Positions 53,047 to 63,121 of a DNA stretch of 64,000 nt are shown one piece after another. How positions within the stretch are numbered: position 1 is the first letter of the stretch; each line of letters begins with the position of its first letter. Where the stretch lies: NCBI RefSeq assembly GCF_900120195.1, contig NZ_LT635539.1:3030661-3094660 (forward strand), read 5' to 3'. A model generated the notes under the pieces. The model was not told the origin of the DNA. It did no database searches and saw only the letters and a program-made list of their open reading frames with translations. The position numbers were made by a program, and so were the translations under genes. The DNA is from Blautia sp. Marseille-P3087. GTDB lineage: Bacteria > Bacillota > Clostridia > Lachnospirales > Lachnospiraceae.

Positions 53047-54291
53047 ATGAATCGTTTAATTTTTCATATTGATGTAAACAGTGCGTTCCTTTCATGGGAA
53101 TCGGTACGCAGAGTGAAACAGGGACTTCCGGATCTCCGGAGTGTCCCTGCTTGCATTGGAGGAGATCCGAAAAAGCGTACGGGAATCGTTGTGGCGAAGT
53201 CCATTCCGGCAAAAAAATACGGAGTTCAGACAGGAGAACCTGTGGCAATGGCACTCCGAAAATGTCCGGACCTCGTCATTGCAAAAAGTGATTTTGAACT
53301 GTATATCAAATGCTCCAGAGCGTTCAAAGAGATCTGTGCATCCTATGCGCCTGTAATGGAATCTTTTTCAATTGATGAAGTTTTTCTGGACATGACAGGC
53401 ACTTCATTGATTTATCCTGATCCGGTTCGGACGGCTCACGAGATCAAAGACAAGATACGAAATGAGCTTGGTTTTACAGTAAATGTGGGGATTTCTGCGA
53501 ACAAACTTCTGGCAAAAATGGCATCTGATTTTGAGAAACCGGATAAGGTGCATACTCTTTTTCCAGAGGAGATTCCGACGAAGATGTGGCCGCTTCCGGT
53601 ACGTGATCTTCTGTTCTTGGGTAAAGCTTCCGAGAAGAAACTGACAGAAGCAGGCATTCATACGATCGGTGATATGGCACATGCAAGAGAGGCGGAAATC
53701 CAGACTTTACTCGGGAACAAAGCTGGCCATCAGCTTTGGCAGTATGCGCGCGGAATTGATGATTCTCCGGTCAGGGCACAGCCGGAAGAAGCAAAAGGTT
53801 TCAGTGTGGAAACAACCTTTAATGATGATATTGTTTCCGTAGAACAGGTGCTTCCGATCCTTCTGGAACAGTGCGATGTTGTAGCGACAAGGATGCGCAG
53901 AAAAGAGAAAAAATGTACCTCCGTATCGGTAACTTTCCGCACACTGGATTTCCGAAACAAATCGCATCAGACAACTCTTCCGAATGCAACGGACATGACA
54001 GATGAGATATACAAAAATGCGAAAAAACTGTTTATCGAATCATGGAAGGGGGAGCCACTTCGGCTGATCGGGGTGGCACTTACAAACCTTACGGACGAGA
54101 GCTTTGAACAGATGTCTCTGTTCGAAGACAATGAGCAGAAAGAGCGCCACAGAAAGCTGGATGCTACGATGGATGCAATCCGTCAGAAGTTCGGCAATGA
54201 CAAAATTACCCGTGCGAGTATCATGAACAGCAACACCGGAATTGCGCGAAAAGCACGCGCACAGATGAAAAATGAGGACGAGAATAAATAG
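53047..54291 (+). CDS. dinB: DNA polymerase IV (Y-family)
   Basis: Error-prone lesion-bypass polymerase. Catalytic acids in FHIDVNSAFLSWE (D9) and SFSIDEVFLDMTG (about 103-104), little-finger domain in the C-terminal third, and a clamp-binding motif EQMSLFED (about 356-363). 414 aa. It begins only 4 bp after the GH3 gene and no LexA box is visible next to it, so its expression may follow the glycoside operon, which is unusual for a DNA-damage polymerase. Confidence 0.92.
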   Translation: MNRLIFHIDVNSAFLSWESVRRVKQGLPDLRSVPACIGGDPKKRTGIVVAKSIPAKKYGVQTGEPVAMALRKCPDLVIAKSDFELYIKCSRAFKEICASYAPVMESFSIDEVFLDMTGTSLIYPDPVRTAHEIKDKIRNELGFTVNVGISANKLLAKMASDFEKPDKVHTLFPEEIPTKMWPLPVRDLLFLGKASEKKLTEAGIHTIGDMAHAREAEIQTLLGNKAGHQLWQYARGIDDSPVRAQPEEAKGFSVETTFNDDIVSVEQVLPILLEQCDVVATRMRRKEKKCTSVSVTFRTLDFRNKSHQTTLPNATDMTDEIYKNAKKLFIESWKGEPLRLIGVALTNLTDESFEQMSLFEDNEQKERHRKLDATMDAIRQKFGNDKITRASIMNSNTGIARKARAQMKNEDENK

Positions 54292-54967: not shown

Positions 54968-54984
54968 AAAAGAATGATAAGTGA

Positions 54985-55013
54985 CCGGATCCGAAGAGGA
55001 TTCGGTTTTTTTT
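54985..55013 (+). terminator. Terminator after the SDR gene
   Basis: CCGGATCC (54985-54992) pairs with GGATTCGG (54998-55005, one G-U), followed by eight T. Confidence 0.9.
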
Positions 55014-55109
55014 GAGCCTTTTTGAGATTGACGTTTTTTTGTCAAAATGCTACAATGGTGGAAACTGAAAAACTTAAAAGAGTTTCCGGGTTTCCAAATG
55101 GAGGATTGA

Positions 55110-55673
55110 ATGCGGGAAAAAATTATTGATGCAACGGTTGAGGAATTTAAACAGAACGGTTTGAAATTTACAATGAACGATCTGGCGAAACGGCTGGGAA
55201 TCAGTAAAAAGACAATCTATACCGTTTTTGAAAGCAAACAGGCAGTTCTGGTAGCGGTGGCTGACCGTTATGCAGCAGATTTATACAGTATGCAGGAAGA
55301 ACTGGAGGCGGACGTAAGCCTGAATGTGGTACAGAAACTGGAGAAGCTTTTGTGCGCGCTTCCGGAGAAATATTCCAACATTGGACTGAGCCGGATTTAC
55401 GAACTTGCGGAGAAATATCCGAAGCCATACAGACATCTGATGCGGTCAGTAAACAATGGATGGGAACAGGCAGAACAGTACCTGAGGAAAGGCATGGAAG
55501 AAGGTCTGATACGGGAAGTTTCCATTCCGGTAGTCATGGCAATGGTAAAAGGTACTGTAATCCGTTTTATGGAGTCAGATGTTCTGTACCAGAATGAACT
55601 GACCTATGAACAGGCCAAAAAAGAAATGGTGGAAATATTAATGAAAGGAATAAAAGCAGGTGGAAAAAGTTAG
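55110..55673 (+). CDS. TetR-family transcription regulator
   Basis: N-terminal HTH of TetR type (MNDLAKRLGISKKTIYTVFESKQAVLVAVADRYA within about 22-55) and a helical ligand-binding part. 187 aa. It opens a five-gene operon: the hypB start lies inside its last codons (14-bp overlap), so it probably autoregulates the nickel-chaperone/flavoprotein genes. The ligand is unknown and could indicate the operon's substrate. Confidence 0.88.
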   Translation: MREKIIDATVEEFKQNGLKFTMNDLAKRLGISKKTIYTVFESKQAVLVAVADRYAADLYSMQEELEADVSLNVVQKLEKLLCALPEKYSNIGLSRIYELAEKYPKPYRHLMRSVNNGWEQAEQYLRKGMEEGLIREVSIPVVMAMVKGTVIRFMESDVLYQNELTYEQAKKEMVEILMKGIKAGGKS

Positions 55674-56328
55674 AATTCTTGAGATTAAAGAAAGCGTGTT
55701 TGCAGACAATGACAGACAGGCTGACCAGCTTCGAGCCAGGCTGAAAGAAAAAGGCGTATTCCTGATGAACCTGATGTCATCACCCGGTTCCGGTAAGACG
55801 ACAACACTGAAAAAAACGATAGAAGCACTGAAAAATGATTTCCGTATCGGTGTTATGGAGGCAGATATTGATTCGGATGTGGACGCACTTGCGATTGCAG
55901 AAACAGGTGCAAAAGCAATCCAGTTACATACCGGCGGCATGTGTCATCTGGATGCAAAAATGACAGAGCAGGGGATCGAAGGATTGGGCATTGAAGATGT
56001 AGATCTGGCAATTCTTGAAAATGTGGGAAACCTCGTCTGTCCTGCCGAGTTTGACACAGGTGCATCCAAAAATGTGATGATTCTTTCCGTTCCGGAGGGA
56101 CATGACAAACCGCTGAAATACCCCTTGATGTTTGAAGTATGCGATGCTGTTCTGATCAATAAGATTGATGTACTTCCATACTTTGATTTCGATATGGAAC
56201 TGGTGAAAAAATACATTCATCAGAGAAATCCCAAAGCAGAGATTTTCCCGGTCAGTGCAAAGACAGGAGAAGGTATAGAGGCATGGACAACATGGCTGAA
56301 AAAGCAGGTTGCTGACTGGAAATCATAA
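55660..56328 (+). CDS. hypB: Nickel-insertion GTPase HypB
   Basis: SIMIBI-class GTPase that delivers Ni2+ to hydrogenase or related enzymes with HypA. P-loop SSPGSGKTT (40-48); the metal site of the G domain is present: C95, H96 and C127 in TGGMCHLD and NLVCPAE. The N-terminal CxxCGC motif and His-rich store of some HypB proteins are absent. 222 aa; GTG start overlapping tetR. No NiFe hydrogenase, urease or hypC-F genes are in this window, so the client is not evident. Confidence 0.92.
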   Translation: MEKVRILEIKESVFADNDRQADQLRARLKEKGVFLMNLMSSPGSGKTTTLKKTIEALKNDFRIGVMEADIDSDVDALAIAETGAKAIQLHTGGMCHLDAKMTEQGIEGLGIEDVDLAILENVGNLVCPAEFDTGASKNVMILSVPEGHDKPLKYPLMFEVCDAVLINKIDVLPYFDFDMELVKKYIHQRNPKAEIFPVSAKTGEGIEAWTTWLKKQVADWKS

Positions 56329-56360
56329 AAAGAAACAGAGAGAAGGGAAAGGAAAGAGAG

Positions 56361-59147
56361 ATGAAAAAAGGACTCGACAAAGAACTTTATCCGGATTATG
56401 TTTACCCGGAATTTACGCCTGATCCGAATGAACCATTTCGTGAACCAATTGCGAAACTGGGTAAAAAGATCACGGACCGTATTCCGCAGAAACTGGGCCT
56501 TAAAAAGATCACCAGAAACGATCCGGAGTATTGGGGACTGGCCGGAGTGCTTTCCGATGAGGAAGCAGAACTGGCACTGAAACTTGGGGTGAGAAAGCCA
56601 AAAACACTGCCGGAGATCGTGAAATTATCTGGTATGGAAGAGAAAAAATGTGAGGCGCTTCTGGAAGAAATGTCACGCAAAGGCCTTCTCGAATACAACT
56701 GGGAAAACGCTGCACATGAGAAGCAGTATGTCCTGCCGATGTATGTACCGGGATGCGCAGAATTTTTTAATATGAATGCAAAAATTCTGGAATCCAATCC
56801 GGAGATGGGAACATTTTTTGAGCATATGTCCCGCCTGCCGCTGGAAAAAATCACCCCATTTGTACCGGAGGGCGGTGCCGGAATAGGCATGCATGTCATC
56901 CCTGTAGAAAAAGCAATTGAGATGGAAAATGAGTCTGTAGATCTGGAACACATTTCCTACTGGCTCAGTAAATACGAGGGAAAATATGCTGCAAGTCCAT
57001 GTTCCTGCCGTCGTTCCAGACTGACACATAACGAAGGCTGTGCAGATGATCCGGAAGGCTGGTGCATTGCGATCGGAGACATGGCGGACTACGTTGTGGA
57101 GACGCAGAAAGACGGACGTTATATTACGAAAGAAGAAGCTCTGGATATTTTCAGACAGGCAGAAGAAAACGGCTTTGTACATCAGATCACAAATATTGAT
57201 GGCAAAGATAAAATTTTTGCTATCTGTAACTGTAACGTAAATGTCTGTTATGCGCTTCGTACATCACAGCTTTTTAATACACCGAATATGTCCCGTTCTG
57301 CATACATTGCAAAAGTTGAGAAACAGAACTGTGTTGCATGCGGCAAATGTGTGGAGGCCTGTCCGGCAGGTGCTGTCAAACTGGGACAGAAACTCTGTGA
57401 TAAAGAAGGCTGTGAGATTACATATCCACGTATCCCGCTTCCGGGTGATCAGCCATGGGGCGAACATATGTGGTCACACAACTACCGCGATACGAACCGC
57501 ATCAACTGCTATGATACAGGTACTGCACCGTGCAAAACAGCCTGTCCGGCACATATTGGCATACAGGGATATCTGCAGCTCGCAAAAGAAGGTCGCTACG
57601 AGGATGCACTTGCGCTGATCAAAAAAGACAATCCACTTCCGGCTGTCTGCGGACATGTATGTAACCGCCGCTGTGAAGATGCCTGCACAAGAGGCACGAT
57701 CGACGAAGCGGTAGCAATTGATGAAGTTAAACGCTTTATCGCAGAACGTGATCTGAATGCAGAGACACGCTTCATTCCGAAAAAAACAATTCCGTCACTG
57801 AAAGGTGGATTTAAAGAAAAAATCGCGATTATCGGCGCAGGACCGGCTGGTTTATCATGTGCATATTTCCTTGCACTGACCGGATACAAACCGACGATTT
57901 TTGAAAAAAATGCAGAACCGGGCGGCATGCTTCGCTATGGAATTCCGTCCTACAAACTGGAAAAAGATCTTCTTGCTGCAGAGATCGATGTGATCCGTCA
58001 GCTTGGCGTAGAGATCCGCTGTGGTGTAGAAGTCGGAAAAGACGTTACAATCGAAGATTTACGAGAGCAGGGTTATAAAGGATTTTATGCTGCAATCGGA
58101 TGTCAGAGAGGAAGAAAACCGGGAATCAGTGGAGAAAATGCCGAAGGTGCATATACGGCGGTGGATTTCTTAAGAAAAGCAGGTGGATCAGAAAGCTTCC
58201 CGCTTGAAGGTGATGTGGTCGTGGTCGGCGGCGGAAACGTAGCCATTGATGCGGCAAGAGTCAGCAGCAGATGTACCGATGCGAAGATTTCCATGTTCTG
58301 TCTGGAAACAAGAGAAAAAATGCCGGCGAGCAACGAAGAAATCGAAGAAGCTCTCGAAGAAGGAATTGAGCTGAACTGTGGCTGGGGACCGAAAGAAATT
58401 CTGGAAGAAGACGGTCATGTAAGAGGCGCCGTTTTCAAAAAATGTACTCGTGTGTTTGATGCACAGGGCAGATTTTCACCTGAATATGATGAGAATGATA
58501 CAGTGACAGTGCCGTGTCGTCATGTGATCTTTTCCGTAGGACAGGCAATCGACTGGGGCCATATGCTGGACAATCTTCATGTGGAACTTCGCCCGAACGG
58601 CGGCGCACTTGCCAACAAACTGACTTACCAGACTTCCGAACCGGATATTTTTGTAGGCGGTGACGTCTATACAGGTCCGAAATTTGCTATCGATGCGATC
58701 GCAGCCGGACGTGAAGGCGCGGTTTCTCTGCATCGTTATGTGCATGAGAATTGTACACTGACCATCGGACGTAACCGACGCGATTTCATTGAACTGGATA
58801 AAGAAAATATTAAAGTGGAAACTTACGACTCATCCAGCCGTCAGATTCCGCCGAAAGCCGATGTAAAAGAACAGGCAAAAACTTTCCGTGATCTGTCACA
58901 GAGCCTGAGCGAAGAGCAGGTGAAAAAAGAAACTTCACGATGCCTGTCCTGTGGCGCATCTGTCGTGGATCCGAATAAATGTATCGGTTGTGGTATCTGT
59001 ACTACGAAATGTATGTTTGATGCAATACATCTGCACAGAGGACTGCCGGGAGCATCTGTGATGCATACATCCGAAGAAAAACTGAAATACATTCTTCCGA
59101 ATATGGTGAAGCAGTCGATCAAAGTGAAATTCAAAAAGAAAAAATAA
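56361..59147 (+). CDS. Multi-cluster FAD-dependent NAD(P) oxidoreductase (GltD/NfnB-like) with N-terminal Fe-S module
   Basis: A 928-aa flavoprotein. Residues 1-110 look like a helical winged-helix part. At about 214-295 lies a Cys-rich region (SPCSCRRSR, CADDPEGWC, AICNCNVNVC). A 4Fe-4S ferredoxin motif CVACGKCVEAC follows (324-334). Then a GltD-type dicluster region (C391 to C442), FAD motif IGAGPAGLSCAYFLALTGY (about 491-509), an NAD(P) motif VVVGGGNVAIDAARV (about 620-635), and a C-terminal ferredoxin motif CIGCGICTTKC (about 883-893). This layout suits electron transfer between NAD(P)H and ferredoxin or a bound substrate. Lies between hypB and hypA. Function unknown; not a simple glutamate synthase, as no GltA partner is present. 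Confidence 0.8.
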   Translation: MKKGLDKELYPDYVYPEFTPDPNEPFREPIAKLGKKITDRIPQKLGLKKITRNDPEYWGLAGVLSDEEAELALKLGVRKPKTLPEIVKLSGMEEKKCEALLEEMSRKGLLEYNWENAAHEKQYVLPMYVPGCAEFFNMNAKILESNPEMGTFFEHMSRLPLEKITPFVPEGGAGIGMHVIPVEKAIEMENESVDLEHISYWLSKYEGKYAASPCSCRRSRLTHNEGCADDPEGWCIAIGDMADYVVETQKDGRYITKEEALDIFRQAEENGFVHQITNIDGKDKIFAICNCNVNVCYALRTSQLFNTPNMSRSAYIAKVEKQNCVACGKCVEACPAGAVKLGQKLCDKEGCEITYPRIPLPGDQPWGEHMWSHNYRDTNRINCYDTGTAPCKTACPAHIGIQGYLQLAKEGRYEDALALIKKDNPLPAVCGHVCNRRCEDACTRGTIDEAVAIDEVKRFIAERDLNAETRFIPKKTIPSLKGGFKEKIAIIGAGPAGLSCAYFLALTGYKPTIFEKNAEPGGMLRYGIPSYKLEKDLLAAEIDVIRQLGVEIRCGVEVGKDVTIEDLREQGYKGFYAAIGCQRGRKPGISGENAEGAYTAVDFLRKAGGSESFPLEGDVVVVGGGNVAIDAARVSSRCTDAKISMFCLETREKMPASNEEIEEALEEGIELNCGWGPKEILEEDGHVRGAVFKKCTRVFDAQGRFSPEYDENDTVTVPCRHVIFSVGQAIDWGHMLDNLHVELRPNGGALANKLTYQTSEPDIFVGGDVYTGPKFAIDAIAAGREGAVSLHRYVHENCTLTIGRNRRDFIELDKENIKVETYDSSSRQIPPKADVKEQAKTFRDLSQSLSEEQVKKETSRCLSCGASVVDPNKCIGCGICTTKCMFDAIHLHRGLPGASVMHTSEEKLKYILPNMVKQSIKVKFKKKK

Positions 59148-59184
59148 GAGCTGTGCAGCAGCTCTCGGGTAAAGGAGAAGCGTT

Positions 59185-59529
59185 ATGCACGAGCTTGGAG
59201 TAACATTTCATATCATGGACCACCTTGAAAAGGTGGCCGAAGAAAATAAGGTGACACATATTCGTAAAGTCACCCTTGAGCTGGGGGAGGTCTCGACAGT
59301 GATCGAGTCCTATCTGCAGAATTGCTGGACGTGGGCGGCCCAAAAACGGCCGCTGTTCAATGAATCTGAATTAGTGGTGGAAACATTACCTGCAGTTACA
59401 TACTGTGAAGACTGTCAGAAGACATATCCGACCGTGGAGCATGGCAGGATCTGCCCACATTGCGGAAGCGAGCACACATATTTACTGCAGGGAAATGAGT
59501 TCAACATTAAGGAAATAGAAGTAGAGTAA
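59185..59529 (+). CDS. hypA: Nickel metallochaperone HypA
   Basis: Carries Ni2+ through the N-terminal Met-His-Glu (MHELGV) and holds a structural zinc with two CxxC pairs (C74/C77, C90/C93). 114 aa, the family length. Start set by AAAGGAG before the ATG. It is separated from its partner hypB by the flavoprotein gene, an unusual order; HypA and HypB usually sit side by side in hyp or urease clusters. Confidence 0.92.
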   Translation: MHELGVTFHIMDHLEKVAEENKVTHIRKVTLELGEVSTVIESYLQNCWTWAAQKRPLFNESELVVETLPAVTYCEDCQKTYPTVEHGRICPHCGSEHTYLLQGNEFNIKEIEVE

Positions 59530-59551
59530 AGGAAAGAAAGAGGGAGAGAGT

Positions 59552-60586
59552 ATGTTTTTTCAAATCTATGGAGAGACAGCCGGATGGCAGCTTCTTGGAT
59601 GGCTGCTGGTATTTACCGGACTTGTCGTAATGAATGAAATCGCAAGAAGATCCAAAGCAGGCGGCATTGCATGTTTTCTGATTCTTCCTGCAGCACTTAC
59701 CGTGTATTTTATTGCTATCTATGTCGGTGCAGCAATGGGAGCTGAATGGGCACTTAATAATGATACGTACGTGCATATGAACAGCTGGTTCCATTATGCA
59801 AAACTGTATGCTGCAACAGCCGGCTGTATCGGATTTATGATTCTTAAGTATCACTGGGGAAAACTCGGAAAATCTCATGGATTTAAAGCGTTTCCGTTTA
59901 TTATCGTTGCAATCAACATCCTGATCGCGGTAGTATCAGACTTTGAATCAGCAGTCCGTGCCGGTTCTCTGGCAGGTGGCTGGTGGCTTTCTTCCGAAGG
60001 CGTATGGCTTTACGGCGGCTGGTGGAACGTATTAAACGGACTGGCCGGTCTTTTGAATATTTTCTGTATGACAGGCTGGTGGGGAATCTACTCCTCAAAA
60101 GACAAAAAAGATATGCTTTGGCCGGACATGATCTGGGTATATGTCCTTGCATATGACATCTGGAATTTCCAGTATACATATCTGAACCTGCCTATACATT
60201 CCTGGTACTGCGGTCTCGCACTTCTGCTCGCACCGACCTTTGCAGCAGCACTCTGGAACAAAGGCGGCTGGATACAGAACCGTGCCAACACGCTGGCACT
60301 CTGGTGCATGTTCGCACAGGTATTCCCGCTGTTCCAGAATGCAAGCCGTTTTACAACAGTCACTTCCGTATACGGACAGGGCGGCATCGCAGCAGCAATG
60401 GGAAGCAGTATGCCGACTACCGCAGAACCGACCGCACAGGGAATTATTTCCGTACTGTCATTTGCAGTGAATGTATTCGTCTTCGCATACATCCTGAAAC
60501 GTGCAAAAGTACAGAAAAAGAATCCGTGGAAGAACGAGATTTTTACAGATACAAAAGACTACAAAGAAGCAATGGAAAGAGCATAA
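59552..60586 (+). CDS. Polytopic membrane protein, DUF5692-like
   Basis: 344-aa membrane protein with about eight to nine hydrophobic segments, Trp-rich (WWLSSEGVWLYGGWW) and with conserved-looking charged or polar patches in loops (GAEWALNNDTYVHMNSWFHYAKLY). It resembles the DUF5692 family; no transport family signature is apparent. Last gene of the tetR-hypB-flavoprotein-hypA series, 22 bp after hypA, with a terminator behind it. Could be a nickel or substrate permease, or a membrane partner of the flavoprotein; this is inference from context. Confidence 0.7.
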   Translation: MFFQIYGETAGWQLLGWLLVFTGLVVMNEIARRSKAGGIACFLILPAALTVYFIAIYVGAAMGAEWALNNDTYVHMNSWFHYAKLYAATAGCIGFMILKYHWGKLGKSHGFKAFPFIIVAINILIAVVSDFESAVRAGSLAGGWWLSSEGVWLYGGWWNVLNGLAGLLNIFCMTGWWGIYSSKDKKDMLWPDMIWVYVLAYDIWNFQYTYLNLPIHSWYCGLALLLAPTFAAALWNKGGWIQNRANTLALWCMFAQVFPLFQNASRFTTVTSVYGQGGIAAAMGSSMPTTAEPTAQGIISVLSFAVNVFVFAYILKRAKVQKKNPWKNEIFTDTKDYKEAMERA

Positions 60587-60596
60587 AGAAGAGAAG

Positions 60597-60625
60597 GGCA
60601 CTGACGGAGGGCAGTGTCTTTTTTT
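60597..60625 (+). terminator. Terminator of the hyp operon
   Basis: GGCACTG (60597-60603) pairs with CAGTGTC (60612-60618), followed by seven T. Its sequence is nearly duplicated at 63226-63252. Confidence 0.85.
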
Positions 60626-61159: not shown

Positions 61160-61219
61160 TGGAATACATCTATTATGGTAATTGAAAATATGTGTGTAGA
61201 AAGGAATAAAGAGGTCAAT

Positions 61220-62440
61220 ATGGGAAAAATTGAAGGTGTTCAGATTAAAAATTTTGGTCCACTTAGAGATATTGTAATGGGAAAAACTTTAAACTATCAA
61301 CAGGGGGATGCTCTTGGAAATGTTACAGCCATCATTGGGCCGAGTGGTAATGGAAAGAGTACACTTGCAGATGCATTTGGATTTTTGGCCGATTGTTTGG
61401 AGATGGGTGTAGAAGAAGCTTGTGATACAAAAAACAGAGGTGGTTTCCAGCAAATTCGTTCACAGGGAGTTGAAGAACCTGTAAAATTTGAATTATATTA
61501 TCGAGAAAAGAGTAACACACGTCCAATCACATATGAACTGGAAATAGATGAAGATTCTATGGGCCGTCCATATGTAAAAGAGGAACGTCTGCGTCAACGC
61601 GTAACCAAGAGAGGGCGACCGTTATCTTTTTTACTTCTTCAAAATGGGCGCGGTTATGCGTATGAGGGAAAAGAAGGCGGTGCAGATGATGATGGACGTA
61701 GCGTGCAGGGAGAAAAAGTAGATGTAGAATTGGCTGATATCAGAAAACTTGGTATTGTAACTTTGGGAGCAATGAAACAATATGAGCGAATTGAAAAATT
61801 TTTGAATTTTTTAAAAAGCTGGTATCTCTGTTATTTTTCACCAGATGCTGCGCGTACTTTGCAAACAGCGGCACCACAGCCATATTTGAATCGTACGGGA
61901 AGTAACATAAATAATGTTGCGCAGTATATGTATCGAGAAAATAAAAGGGAGTTTACGAAAGTCTTAAAAGAAATTCAAACAAAACTGCCCAATATTGAGA
62001 AAATTGAGCCGGTCAAATTTGACAATGGACAAATGATGCTTAAATTTTGGGAAAAAGGATTTGAGAAAGCGATTTATTCTCCGAAGATGTCTGATGGTAC
62101 TCTGAAATTGTTTGCTTACTATTTATTATTGCACGAAAGTAATCCACGTCAGCTAGTATTTATTGAAGAACCGGAAAACGGATTATATCATCAATATTTA
62201 AAACTTCTGGCAGATGAAATGGTGAAAAGTGTTGGGACGGGATTTTCAAAGCAGTTGTTCGTTACTACACATAGTCCTTTTTTTGTAAATGCGTTATCTC
62301 CAGAAAATGTGTGGGTACTTGAAAAGGGTGATGATGGCTTTTCAAAAGTTAAACGAGCGTCAGAATATGCATTTGTAAAAGAACTTTCAGAAGAAGGAAT
62401 TCCGTTAGGGGACATGTGGTATAGCAAATATTTCGGATGA
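61220..62440 (+). CDS. AAA_21/OLD-like ATPase of a probable defence pair
   Basis: ABC/SMC-type ATPase of the kind found in OLD, PARIS and related systems. Walker A IIGPSGNGKSTLA is at 39-51, a long variable middle (about 90-270) follows, and a C-terminal Walker B LVFIEEPENGLYHQ with the D-loop/H-loop TTHSPFFVNAL completes it. About 406 aa. The start at 61220 has AAAGAGG; an in-frame ATG at 61175 lacks one. The DUF4276 gene begins 12 bp after it. AT-richer than the neighbourhood, which suggests acquisition by transfer. Confidence 0.82.
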   Translation: MGKIEGVQIKNFGPLRDIVMGKTLNYQQGDALGNVTAIIGPSGNGKSTLADAFGFLADCLEMGVEEACDTKNRGGFQQIRSQGVEEPVKFELYYREKSNTRPITYELEIDEDSMGRPYVKEERLRQRVTKRGRPLSFLLLQNGRGYAYEGKEGGADDDGRSVQGEKVDVELADIRKLGIVTLGAMKQYERIEKFLNFLKSWYLCYFSPDAARTLQTAAPQPYLNRTGSNINNVAQYMYRENKREFTKVLKEIQTKLPNIEKIEPVKFDNGQMMLKFWEKGFEKAIYSPKMSDGTLKLFAYYLLLHESNPRQLVFIEEPENGLYHQYLKLLADEMVKSVGTGFSKQLFVTTHSPFFVNALSPENVWVLEKGDDGFSKVKRASEYAFVKELSEEGIPLGDMWYSKYFG

Positions 62441-62452
62441 TGGGAGAGAACT

Positions 62453-63121
62453 ATGTATTTTCAGTTTTTGATAGAAGATAAATCAACAGAGATTTTGGTA
62501 AATCATATCATGGAAAAAATAAAGGAAATGTATCCAGATATATTTATTGATTTCAATATAAAATCATTTAACGGGATTGGACATTTATCAACACATGGAA
62601 GTCTACAGGAACGCAAAGGAAGCGGATTGTTGAATAATCTTCCTTTATATTTGAGAGGGTTTGATCGTTCTCTGGCGCAAATGCCGCAGGCAGTTATTGT
62701 TGTTGTGTTGGACAATGATAAACGTGATTGCACAGAATTCCAAAATGCGTTAGACAAAATTGCAAAAGAATCTGTGCAATTAATTGACTGGGTAGTTTGT
62801 ATTGCTGTAAAAGAAATGGAGGCGTGGTTATTAGGAGATGAGAATGCTATTACCAGTGCCTACCCAAATGCAAAGAAAAAATATTTGAAAGCCTATGAGC
62901 AGGATGGCATATGTGATACATGGGAAGTGTTGGCAAACATGTTATATCCCGGTGGACTGGCAGCTTTAAAGAAAAAGTCTAAGAATAGCTATAGTGTAAC
63001 CGGAAGTGCAAAGTGCGAATGGGCAGATAAAATTGGTAAAGAGTTAAATCTGGAATGCAATCTTTCTCCAAGCTTTAATAGATTTTTACGGTCACTTCAA
63101 TTGCGAATTGATGCTGCATAA
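62453..63121 (+). CDS. DUF4276 protein, TOPRIM-like nuclease candidate
   Basis: 222 aa. It starts with FLIEDKSTEIL (Glu at residue 8 in the place of the TOPRIM Glu), has a DxD pair in VVVLDNDKRD (D87, D89), and EMEAWLLGDE (E121/E123), the layout of DUF4276/TOPRIM proteins. Such domains cut or nick nucleic acid in OLD-family and PARIS-like systems. It follows the ATPase gene by 12 bp, so the pair is one unit. Antiphage function is inferred from family logic and context, not shown here. Confidence 0.75.
   Translation: MYFQFLIEDKSTEILVNHIMEKIKEMYPDIFIDFNIKSFNGIGHLSTHGSLQERKGSGLLNNLPLYLRGFDRSLAQMPQAVIVVVLDNDKRDCTEFQNALDKIAKESVQLIDWVVCIAVKEMEAWLLGDENAITSAYPNAKKKYLKAYEQDGICDTWEVLANMLYPGGLAALKKKSKNSYSVTGSAKCEWADKIGKELNLECNLSPSFNRFLRSLQLRIDAA

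Follow-up and report, generated by a model that had tools for sequence, protein, structure and literature searches.

A conserved nickel-chaperone operon of Blautia sp. Marseille-P3087 with an IsrA-like flavoprotein and a DUF5692 membrane protein, possibly a conjugated-diene reductase system of gut bacteria

A 64,000-nucleotide stretch of the genome of Blautia sp. Marseille-P3087 (contig NZ_LT635539.1, positions 3,030,661 to 3,094,660), hereafter called the window, carries at positions 55110–60586 an operon of five open reading frames in the order tetR-hypB-flavoprotein-hypA-DUF5692. This operon is real and conserved, and is a relative, with DUF5692, of the IsrA-type family already in print. 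The best-supported reading of the nickel chaperones HypA and HypB is that the flavoprotein itself would be their client, and the operon as a whole is best explained—with about an even chance of being right—as encoding a nickel-assisted conjugated-diene reductase of the IsrA type, for which dietary polyunsaturated fatty acids would be the likeliest substrate. The gene neighbourhood and the idea of a nickel client have been in print since 2023, whereas the co-occurrence with HypA, the grouping of the HypA sequences, an upstream palindrome and the substrate proposal are new; the nickel-client reading is strengthened, the exact metal site questioned and a specific substrate proposed.

All five genes lie on the plus strand and follow each other closely, with gaps, from tetR to DUF5692, of −14, 32, 37 and 22 bp, in agreement with the single compact unit of a preliminary description of the window, the end of which has to be moved from 60625 to 60586, where the last gene stops. 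The first gene (55110–55673) encodes a TetR-family regulator of 187 residues (PF00440, 46 bits) and overlaps by 14 bp with hypB (55660–56328), which begins with GTG and encodes a nickel GTPase of 222 residues scoring 254.5 bits with TIGR00073 (cut-off 121.2), its metal residues C95, H96 and C127—the CHxnC site of the G-domain—being intact. These are followed by the gene for the IsrA-like multi-cluster flavoprotein (56361–59147; 928 residues; PF14691, PF07992 and two Fer4 stretches) and by hypA (59185–59529), the product of which has 114 residues, starts with MHE, contains two CxxC motifs and passes the cut-off of PF01155 (110.5 bits), but misses the equivalog cut-off of TIGR00100 (74.6 vs 88.1 bits). 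The last gene (59552–60586) encodes the DUF5692 membrane protein, whose 344 residues match PF18948 from end to end (461 bits). The nickel residues of both chaperones, as well as the length, the GltD-like fold and the two ferredoxin motifs (residues 324 and 874) of the flavoprotein, had been noticed in the preliminary description and were found as given there.

The published counterpart, IsrA, is an isoprene-induced flavoprotein of 901 residues, described as the putative isoprene reductase of Acetobacterium and encoded together with HypA and HypB (PMC10134865); it is the induced candidate enzyme for the reduction of isoprene by A. wieringae strain Y (PMC10134865, PMC9765523). According to Jin et al. 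2022, this strain converts isoprene and 1,3-butadiene to mono-enes, ethene, propene and fumarate being left unreduced (PMC9765523). In Kronen et al. 2023, IsrA is argued to be the nickel target, a Cys6 site is discussed, terpenes are proposed as substrates of the homologs, and the neighbours of 988 IsrA homologs include HypA (0.73), HypB (0.56), DUF5692 (0.40) and TetR (0.21) (PMC10134865); a nickel-client role was thus already proposed there for IsrA and its homologs, the preliminary description having allowed for a nickel-using redox pathway not yet described.

It should be noted that the likeness to IsrA was established by description, i.e. by domains, motifs and neighbours. Both proteins have about 900 residues, an FAD/NAD(P)H core (FAD, flavin adenine dinucleotide), four [4Fe-4S] sites and two N-terminal CxC motifs, both flavoprotein genes are adjoined by hypA and hypB, and neither genome has NiFe hydrogenase structural genes; the neighbourhoods of IsrA homologs also list TetR and DUF5692, as in the window operon. 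The window flavoprotein further shows the traits of IsrA and its clade 9—a full-length protein of about 900 residues with PF07992, PF14691 and two further 4Fe-4S domains—and it has the six-Cys site, the residues being equated by order and spacing only. On the other hand, the isr operon (A. wieringae ISORED-2 / strain Y), as described, includes hypA twice, together with a stand-alone ferredoxin, but no DUF5692 or tetR, whereas the window operon is without the second hypA and the ENOG4105DQ9 ferredoxin of that five-gene layout; the isr genome is also said to lack hypCDEF, which the genome of the window has.

Which protein the chaperones serve was addressed with 150 genomes of the window's family, representing 150 genera and including its own genome, all of which were searched for DUF5692, HypA, HypD, the hydrogenase large subunit PF00374, the N-terminal 314 residues of the flavoprotein and HydG, and the clear matches were cross-tabulated. 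Dropped before counting were genome G092 (a DUF5692 match of 31 residues), G131 (a weak HypA), the HypA matches below the cut-off, 12 genomes with the flavoprotein domain below 100 bits, and the HypD matches below the cut-off in G002 and G022. HypA is present in 30 of the 31 genomes with the flavoprotein domain (Fisher 1e-20 among the 150), only five of which have HypD and four PF00374, so that there is no dependence on either; the pair of flavoprotein and HypA occurs without HypD in 25 of 30 genomes. DUF5692 was found in 21 of the 150 genomes, each of which also has the flavoprotein and HypA, and is absent from ten of the 31 flavoprotein genomes. The 12 genomes having HypA without the flavoprotein mostly contain HypD (10/12), and for 31 of the 48 HypA matches the flavoprotein domain is no more than 5 kb away. 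Where the flavoprotein and PF00374 occur together, in four genomes, there are always two HypA genes, one of them adjoining the flavoprotein; since the PF00374 matches cover only profile positions 1–70 in 15 of 16 genomes, the term NiFe hydrogenase here means hydrogenase-like.

The HypA sequences themselves are divided in the same sense. The tree of 37 rows was built from 16 of 49 operon HypA sequences, that of the window and 20 of the 48 family matches (among them 14 of the 17 that have no flavoprotein next to them), and five of its branches are long. One branch, with a support of 93/83 and present in 92% of 200 bootstrap trees—below the level starred by the tool—parts 23 flavoprotein-side rows, the window HypA included, from 14 others; the latter, several of them on long branches, all come from genomes with HypD, and the four same-genome pairs separate by gene context. 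Compared with the [NiFe]-hydrogenase maturation system, the window HypA and HypB thus belong to the same families and have their nickel residues intact, yet HypA sorts into a group of its own, linked to the flavoprotein and found mostly without HypD (25/30), and PF00374, the client large subunit of that system, was not found in the window's own genome. Because HypA accompanies 30 of the 31 flavoproteins regardless of HypD and NiFe hydrogenase, and because the flavoprotein-side sequences group apart, the survey strengthens the flavoprotein, one of the candidates named in the preliminary description, as the probable nickel client. Should nickel indeed be present in it, the flavoprotein would add to the few nickel enzymes and would, to our knowledge, be the first alkene reductase among them.

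The flavoprotein consists of an N-terminal Cys domain (residues 1–315), a Fer4 stretch (324–334), a GltD/NfnB-like core (~387–797) and a C-terminal Fer4 stretch (874–884), the two CxxCxxCxxxC motifs starting at residues 324 and 874; the NfnABC/StnABC and GltD fold was recognised over residues ~386–890. Its similarity to the cores of NfnB, GltD and dihydropyrimidine dehydrogenase excludes the N-terminal Cys domain, for which no PDB sequence match at E ≤ 0.01 was obtained. Within that domain, Cys214, Cys216, Cys235, Cys289, Cys291 and Cys296 are invariant in 33 aligned rows, i.e. two CxC motifs (CSC 214–216 and CNC 289–291) plus C235 and C296, Cys227 being variable; the rows represent 31 distinct proteins (L154 was left out) with 34 to 100% identity to the window protein in the N-terminal domain, 30 of the 31 originating from genomes with HypA. 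Since the AlphaFold model of this domain is weak, with a pLDDT (predicted local distance difference test score) below 50 at residues 176–192 and 300–312, no metal-site distances were taken from it.

Concerning DUF5692, the scan gave at least 578 relatives, and the best 80 of them, on which the following counts are based, include members of Lachnospiraceae, Oscillospiraceae, Limosilactobacillus, Collinsella, Treponema and Bacteroidales by their record titles; the habitat, where stated in the record titles, is gut, faeces or rumen (uncounted). The flavoprotein is found in the same locus in 53 of the 80 cases and the exact order hypB-flavoprotein-hypA-DUF5692 in 27, so the gene order that the preliminary description had proposed to follow among relatives does recur. 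In five of the 53 loci (three Bacteroidales and two Collinsella) the flavoprotein is on the opposite strand, and the association thus withstands rearrangement. Some of the loci without the flavoprotein are short contigs, and 21 of 25 such genomes searched (L070 and L077 were outside this search) have both flavoprotein and HypA elsewhere, the flavoprotein being in pieces in three. Neither of the two was found in the four Limosilactobacillus genomes with DUF5692 that were searched; Latilactobacillus curvatus also has DUF5692 (37% identity). The predicted model of the protein has a pLDDT of 92. Nearly invariant among 79 rows are His81, His216, Asp130, Asp187, Asp192, Asp202, Cys92, Cys172, Cys220 and Cys252, and 10 Trp and 9 Tyr residues are equally conserved, which would point to an organic ligand. 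In the literature searched, DUF5692 is named by Kronen et al. 2023 only (PMC10134865).

Two individual records may be mentioned here. In Subdoligranulum variabile, DUF5692 and flavoprotein genes are located on a plasmid of 267 kb (record OY725877.1, 190290–205321; L213), and as this plasmid is typed mobilizable, the module may be passed among gut bacteria. In [Ruminococcus] faecis, a second DUF5692, 41% identical, is encoded directly 3' of the flavoprotein gene (L144:4891–5832), the other copy being in L061.

With regard to nickel in the flavoprotein, the electron path, the substrate, the role of DUF5692 and the action of TetR, we infer the following scheme. The product of the operon would be an IsrA-type reductase that depends on FAD and Fe-S clusters and is assisted by nickel, HypB and a dedicated HypA paralog bringing Ni(II) to its 928-residue flavoprotein. 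NAD(P)H would feed electrons into the GltD/NfnB-like FAD core, from which the four [4Fe-4S] clusters would conduct them to a metal centre within the N-terminal Cys domain, where one C=C bond of the conjugated diene of a lipophilic compound would be reduced. DUF5692 is proposed to be a lipid-diene isomerase or a substrate-presenting partner: from within the membrane it would supply the substrate, possibly by isomerising a methylene-interrupted diene such as linoleate to the conjugated form, and TetR would derepress the operon in the presence of that substrate. The most likely natural substrate would be dietary polyunsaturated fatty acids, along the route linoleate–rumenate–vaccenate.

This proposal resembles the linoleate isomerase and conjugated linoleic acid (CLA) reductase of rumen and gut biohydrogenation in the order of the reactions and in overlapping hosts (Roseburia inulinivorans and, by genus, Pseudobutyrivibrio); the operon proteins were compared with these enzymes by description, their membership being hypothetical. 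The IsrA-related system stops at the mono-ene, which fits the requirement of the reduction of CLA to vaccenate. Vaccenic acid from linoleate has been reported for R. inulinivorans and R. hominis, and hydroxy fatty acids, not CLA, for R. intestinalis and R. faecis. DUF5692 is encoded by R. inulinivorans DSM 16841 (L045), a different contig of which carries a 71% flavoprotein and, adjoining it, HypA. Similarly, a Pseudobutyrivibrio metagenome-assembled genome (L066) has DUF5692, flavoprotein and HypA, and the Pseudobutyrivibrio clade is reported to stop at vaccenate. The occurrence of DUF5692 without flavoprotein and HypA in Limosilactobacillus and its presence in L. curvatus, which is reported to convert linoleate weakly to CLA, fit an isomerase needing no reductase, and a membrane-bound state has been described for the c9,t11-forming isomerases of Butyrivibrio fibrisolvens and L. 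reuteri. An oleate hydratase is also listed in the IsrA-homolog neighbourhoods of A. woodii and A. fimetarium (PMC10134865), and the authors of a 2018 genome paper on B. fibrisolvens reported that they found no linoleate isomerase gene (PMC6249431). It is conceivable, albeit rather doubtful, that the operon supplies the genes so far missing for the biohydrogenation of polyunsaturated fat in the gut, with DUF5692 as a membrane linoleate cis-12/trans-11 isomerase forming CLA, the flavoprotein as a nickel CLA reductase loaded by its own HypA and HypB, and Limosilactobacillus keeping the isomerase only. If the fatty-acid reading is true, genes would be at hand for both steps from linoleate to vaccenate in rumen and gut bacteria, which would matter for gut fatty-acid chemistry and for how much CLA and trans fat milk and meat contain.

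Several points weigh against these proposals. There is no direct evidence for nickel in any IsrA-type protein, one flavoprotein genome (G001, 74% complete) is without HypA, and the same six cysteines, put forward in print as the nickel site, are present in nine of nine stand-alone homologs (24–28% identity) whose genomes have no HypA over the cut-off. The match between vaccenate formation and the genes rests on one species (R. inulinivorans) and one genus (Pseudobutyrivibrio); no fatty-acid gene was noticed by eye beside the operon in relatives, where the neighbours were clustered and not individually annotated, and the short-chain dehydrogenase/reductase (SDR) gene upstream of the window operon scores far below the cut-offs of 3-oxoacyl-acyl carrier protein reductase models. 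A fold search with DUF5692 returned no structural relative, hence none hinting at an isomerase. The CLA of lactobacilli may, moreover, arise via a multi-enzyme hydratase route that has been described. The isomerase sequence of L. reuteri is presumably of the hydratase type.

Among the alternatives, one to be held tentatively is that the flavoprotein is nickel-dependent but reduces a lipophilic conjugated compound other than fatty acids (terpenes, isoprene, plant polyenes, a steroid or a pigment), with DUF5692 as an uptake or membrane-docking partner. It is favoured by the discovery of IsrA through isoprene and the terpenes proposed by its authors for the homologs, by the ten flavoprotein genomes without DUF5692, from which it follows that substrates may vary by lineage, and by the lack of a clear fatty-acid gene adjoining the operon in the window; fatty acids are nevertheless the better fit for the flavoprotein-free DUF5692 of lactobacilli and for vaccenate formation by R. 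inulinivorans.

That HypA and HypB insert another metal, e.g. zinc, or aid iron-sulfur assembly in the flavoprotein seems unlikely. The retention of the Cys6 site by the HypA-free homologs and the score of the window HypA under the TIGR00100 cut-off are in its favour, the intact nickel residues of both chaperones against it. Since those homologs keep the site, the cysteines alone do not account for the need for HypA, and the Cys6 set was rejected as the sole reason for a need for nickel. Residue 274, by contrast, is His in 33 of 33 flavoprotein rows and Gln in nine of nine HypA-free homologs, with Glu268 and Arg300 dividing the two sets likewise; His274 is a candidate for an extra metal ligand or a catalytic acid. 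The stand-alone homologs of the N-terminal Cys domain (L200–L208) have ~430–500 residues, and in two genomes (G057 and G140) they are located ~6 kb or less from hydG.

A role of DUF5692 as importer of nickel or another divalent metal feeding HypB and HypA, the flavoprotein being the client, appears quite improbable: although a membrane protein encoded with nickel chaperones and carrying nearly invariant His, Asp and Cys residues invites it, DUF5692 occurs without HypA and flavoprotein in all four Limosilactobacillus genomes, is missing from ten of 31 flavoprotein genomes, and has Trp and Tyr residues just as conserved, suggestive of an organic ligand. The fold search gave no match to a transporter, which by itself would not decide the matter.

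Equally improbable is the service of HypA and HypB to another enzyme elsewhere in the genome, with a regulatory or historical linkage to the flavoprotein, for which the presence of hypF-C-D-E elsewhere in the own genome speaks and against which stand the 25 HypD-free genomes with the flavoprotein–HypA pair, the scarcity of HypA together with HypD in genomes free of PF00374 (HypD without PF00374 in 8/150; seven of the eight without HypA over the cut-off, the eighth being the own genome) and the own genome itself, where, of the nickel enzymes searched for, no hydrogenase, urease or lactate racemase was found.

The own genome contains a single HypA. The genome-wide search named in the preliminary description found no PF00374, no urease alpha and no lactate racemase (LarA), nickel-dependent carbon monoxide dehydrogenase and other nickel enzymes being outside it, and a complete NiFe hydrogenase operon, weighed there as possible counter-evidence, did not come to light, the large subunit not being found. 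The statement that hypC-F are lacking holds for the window and not for the genome, in which hypF, hypC, hypD and hypE occupy positions ~1,584,350–1,589,220 (G000:C2), 1.5 Mb from the operon. Around them lie two NifH/NifD/NifK-like sets and a gene of the TM1266 family, together forming a cluster on the minus strand (G000:C2 ~1,580,100–1,592,350; L136:4119–16344). As HypD mostly occurs without HypA in the eight genomes free of PF00374 (7/8) and the flavoprotein–HypA pair without HypD in 25 genomes, the operon chaperones and the hypF-C-D-E cluster are taken as separate systems.

The same cluster is carried by relatives L137–L142, two nif-like sets being present in L136, L137 and L140, one set or parts in L138, L139 and L141, and none visible in L142 (contig start). 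In L137, L138 and L139 the cluster is adjoined by HydF and/or HydE. HydG over the cut-off is missing in seven of the eight HypD-positive genomes free of PF00374, and in 77 of the 150 overall. A replacement of HydG by HypCDEF and the nitrogenase-like proteins as the CN/CO source for a putative [FeFe]-hydrogenase H-cluster is suggested; a literature search for this link found only a Methanococcus proteomics paper. The HypD, HypE and HypF of the chromid of B. fibrisolvens INBov1, reported as a NiFe hydrogenase maturation system (PMC6249431), may be such a nitrogenase-like/hyp cluster instead.

Upstream of the operon, a terminator-like hairpin on the plus strand (54983–55007; 10 pairs followed by a T run; a consensus match only, with 14 such sites in the whole stretch vs 4.3 expected) lies 3' of the SDR gene, and this gene was ruled out as an operon member by the hairpin and a gap of 142 bp. 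A promoter-like site on the same strand (TTGACG-17-TACAAT, 55028–55056, with TG preceding the −10 element and 10/12 matches) is supported mainly by its position, there being 13 such sites vs 10.5 expected in the stretch. Downstream of it, the palindrome GGAAAC-N16-GTTTCC (55060–55087, no strand) is proposed to be the TetR operator: it occurs 50–100 bp 5' of the first gene in all three loci led by a homolog of the window's tetR (the window, L026 and L029), and the window has two matches vs 0.06 expected, the second (53808–53838) inside a coding frame. As it is absent from all 28 other loci examined, none with a leading tetR homolog, it was rejected as a general element of the operon.

Adjoining the operon (window 61175–63121), there are genes for an AAA_21 ATPase and a DUF4276 protein, whose best PADLOC matches are HEC-01A (565 bits) and HEC-01B (313 bits), making the two a candidate anti-phage defence pair.

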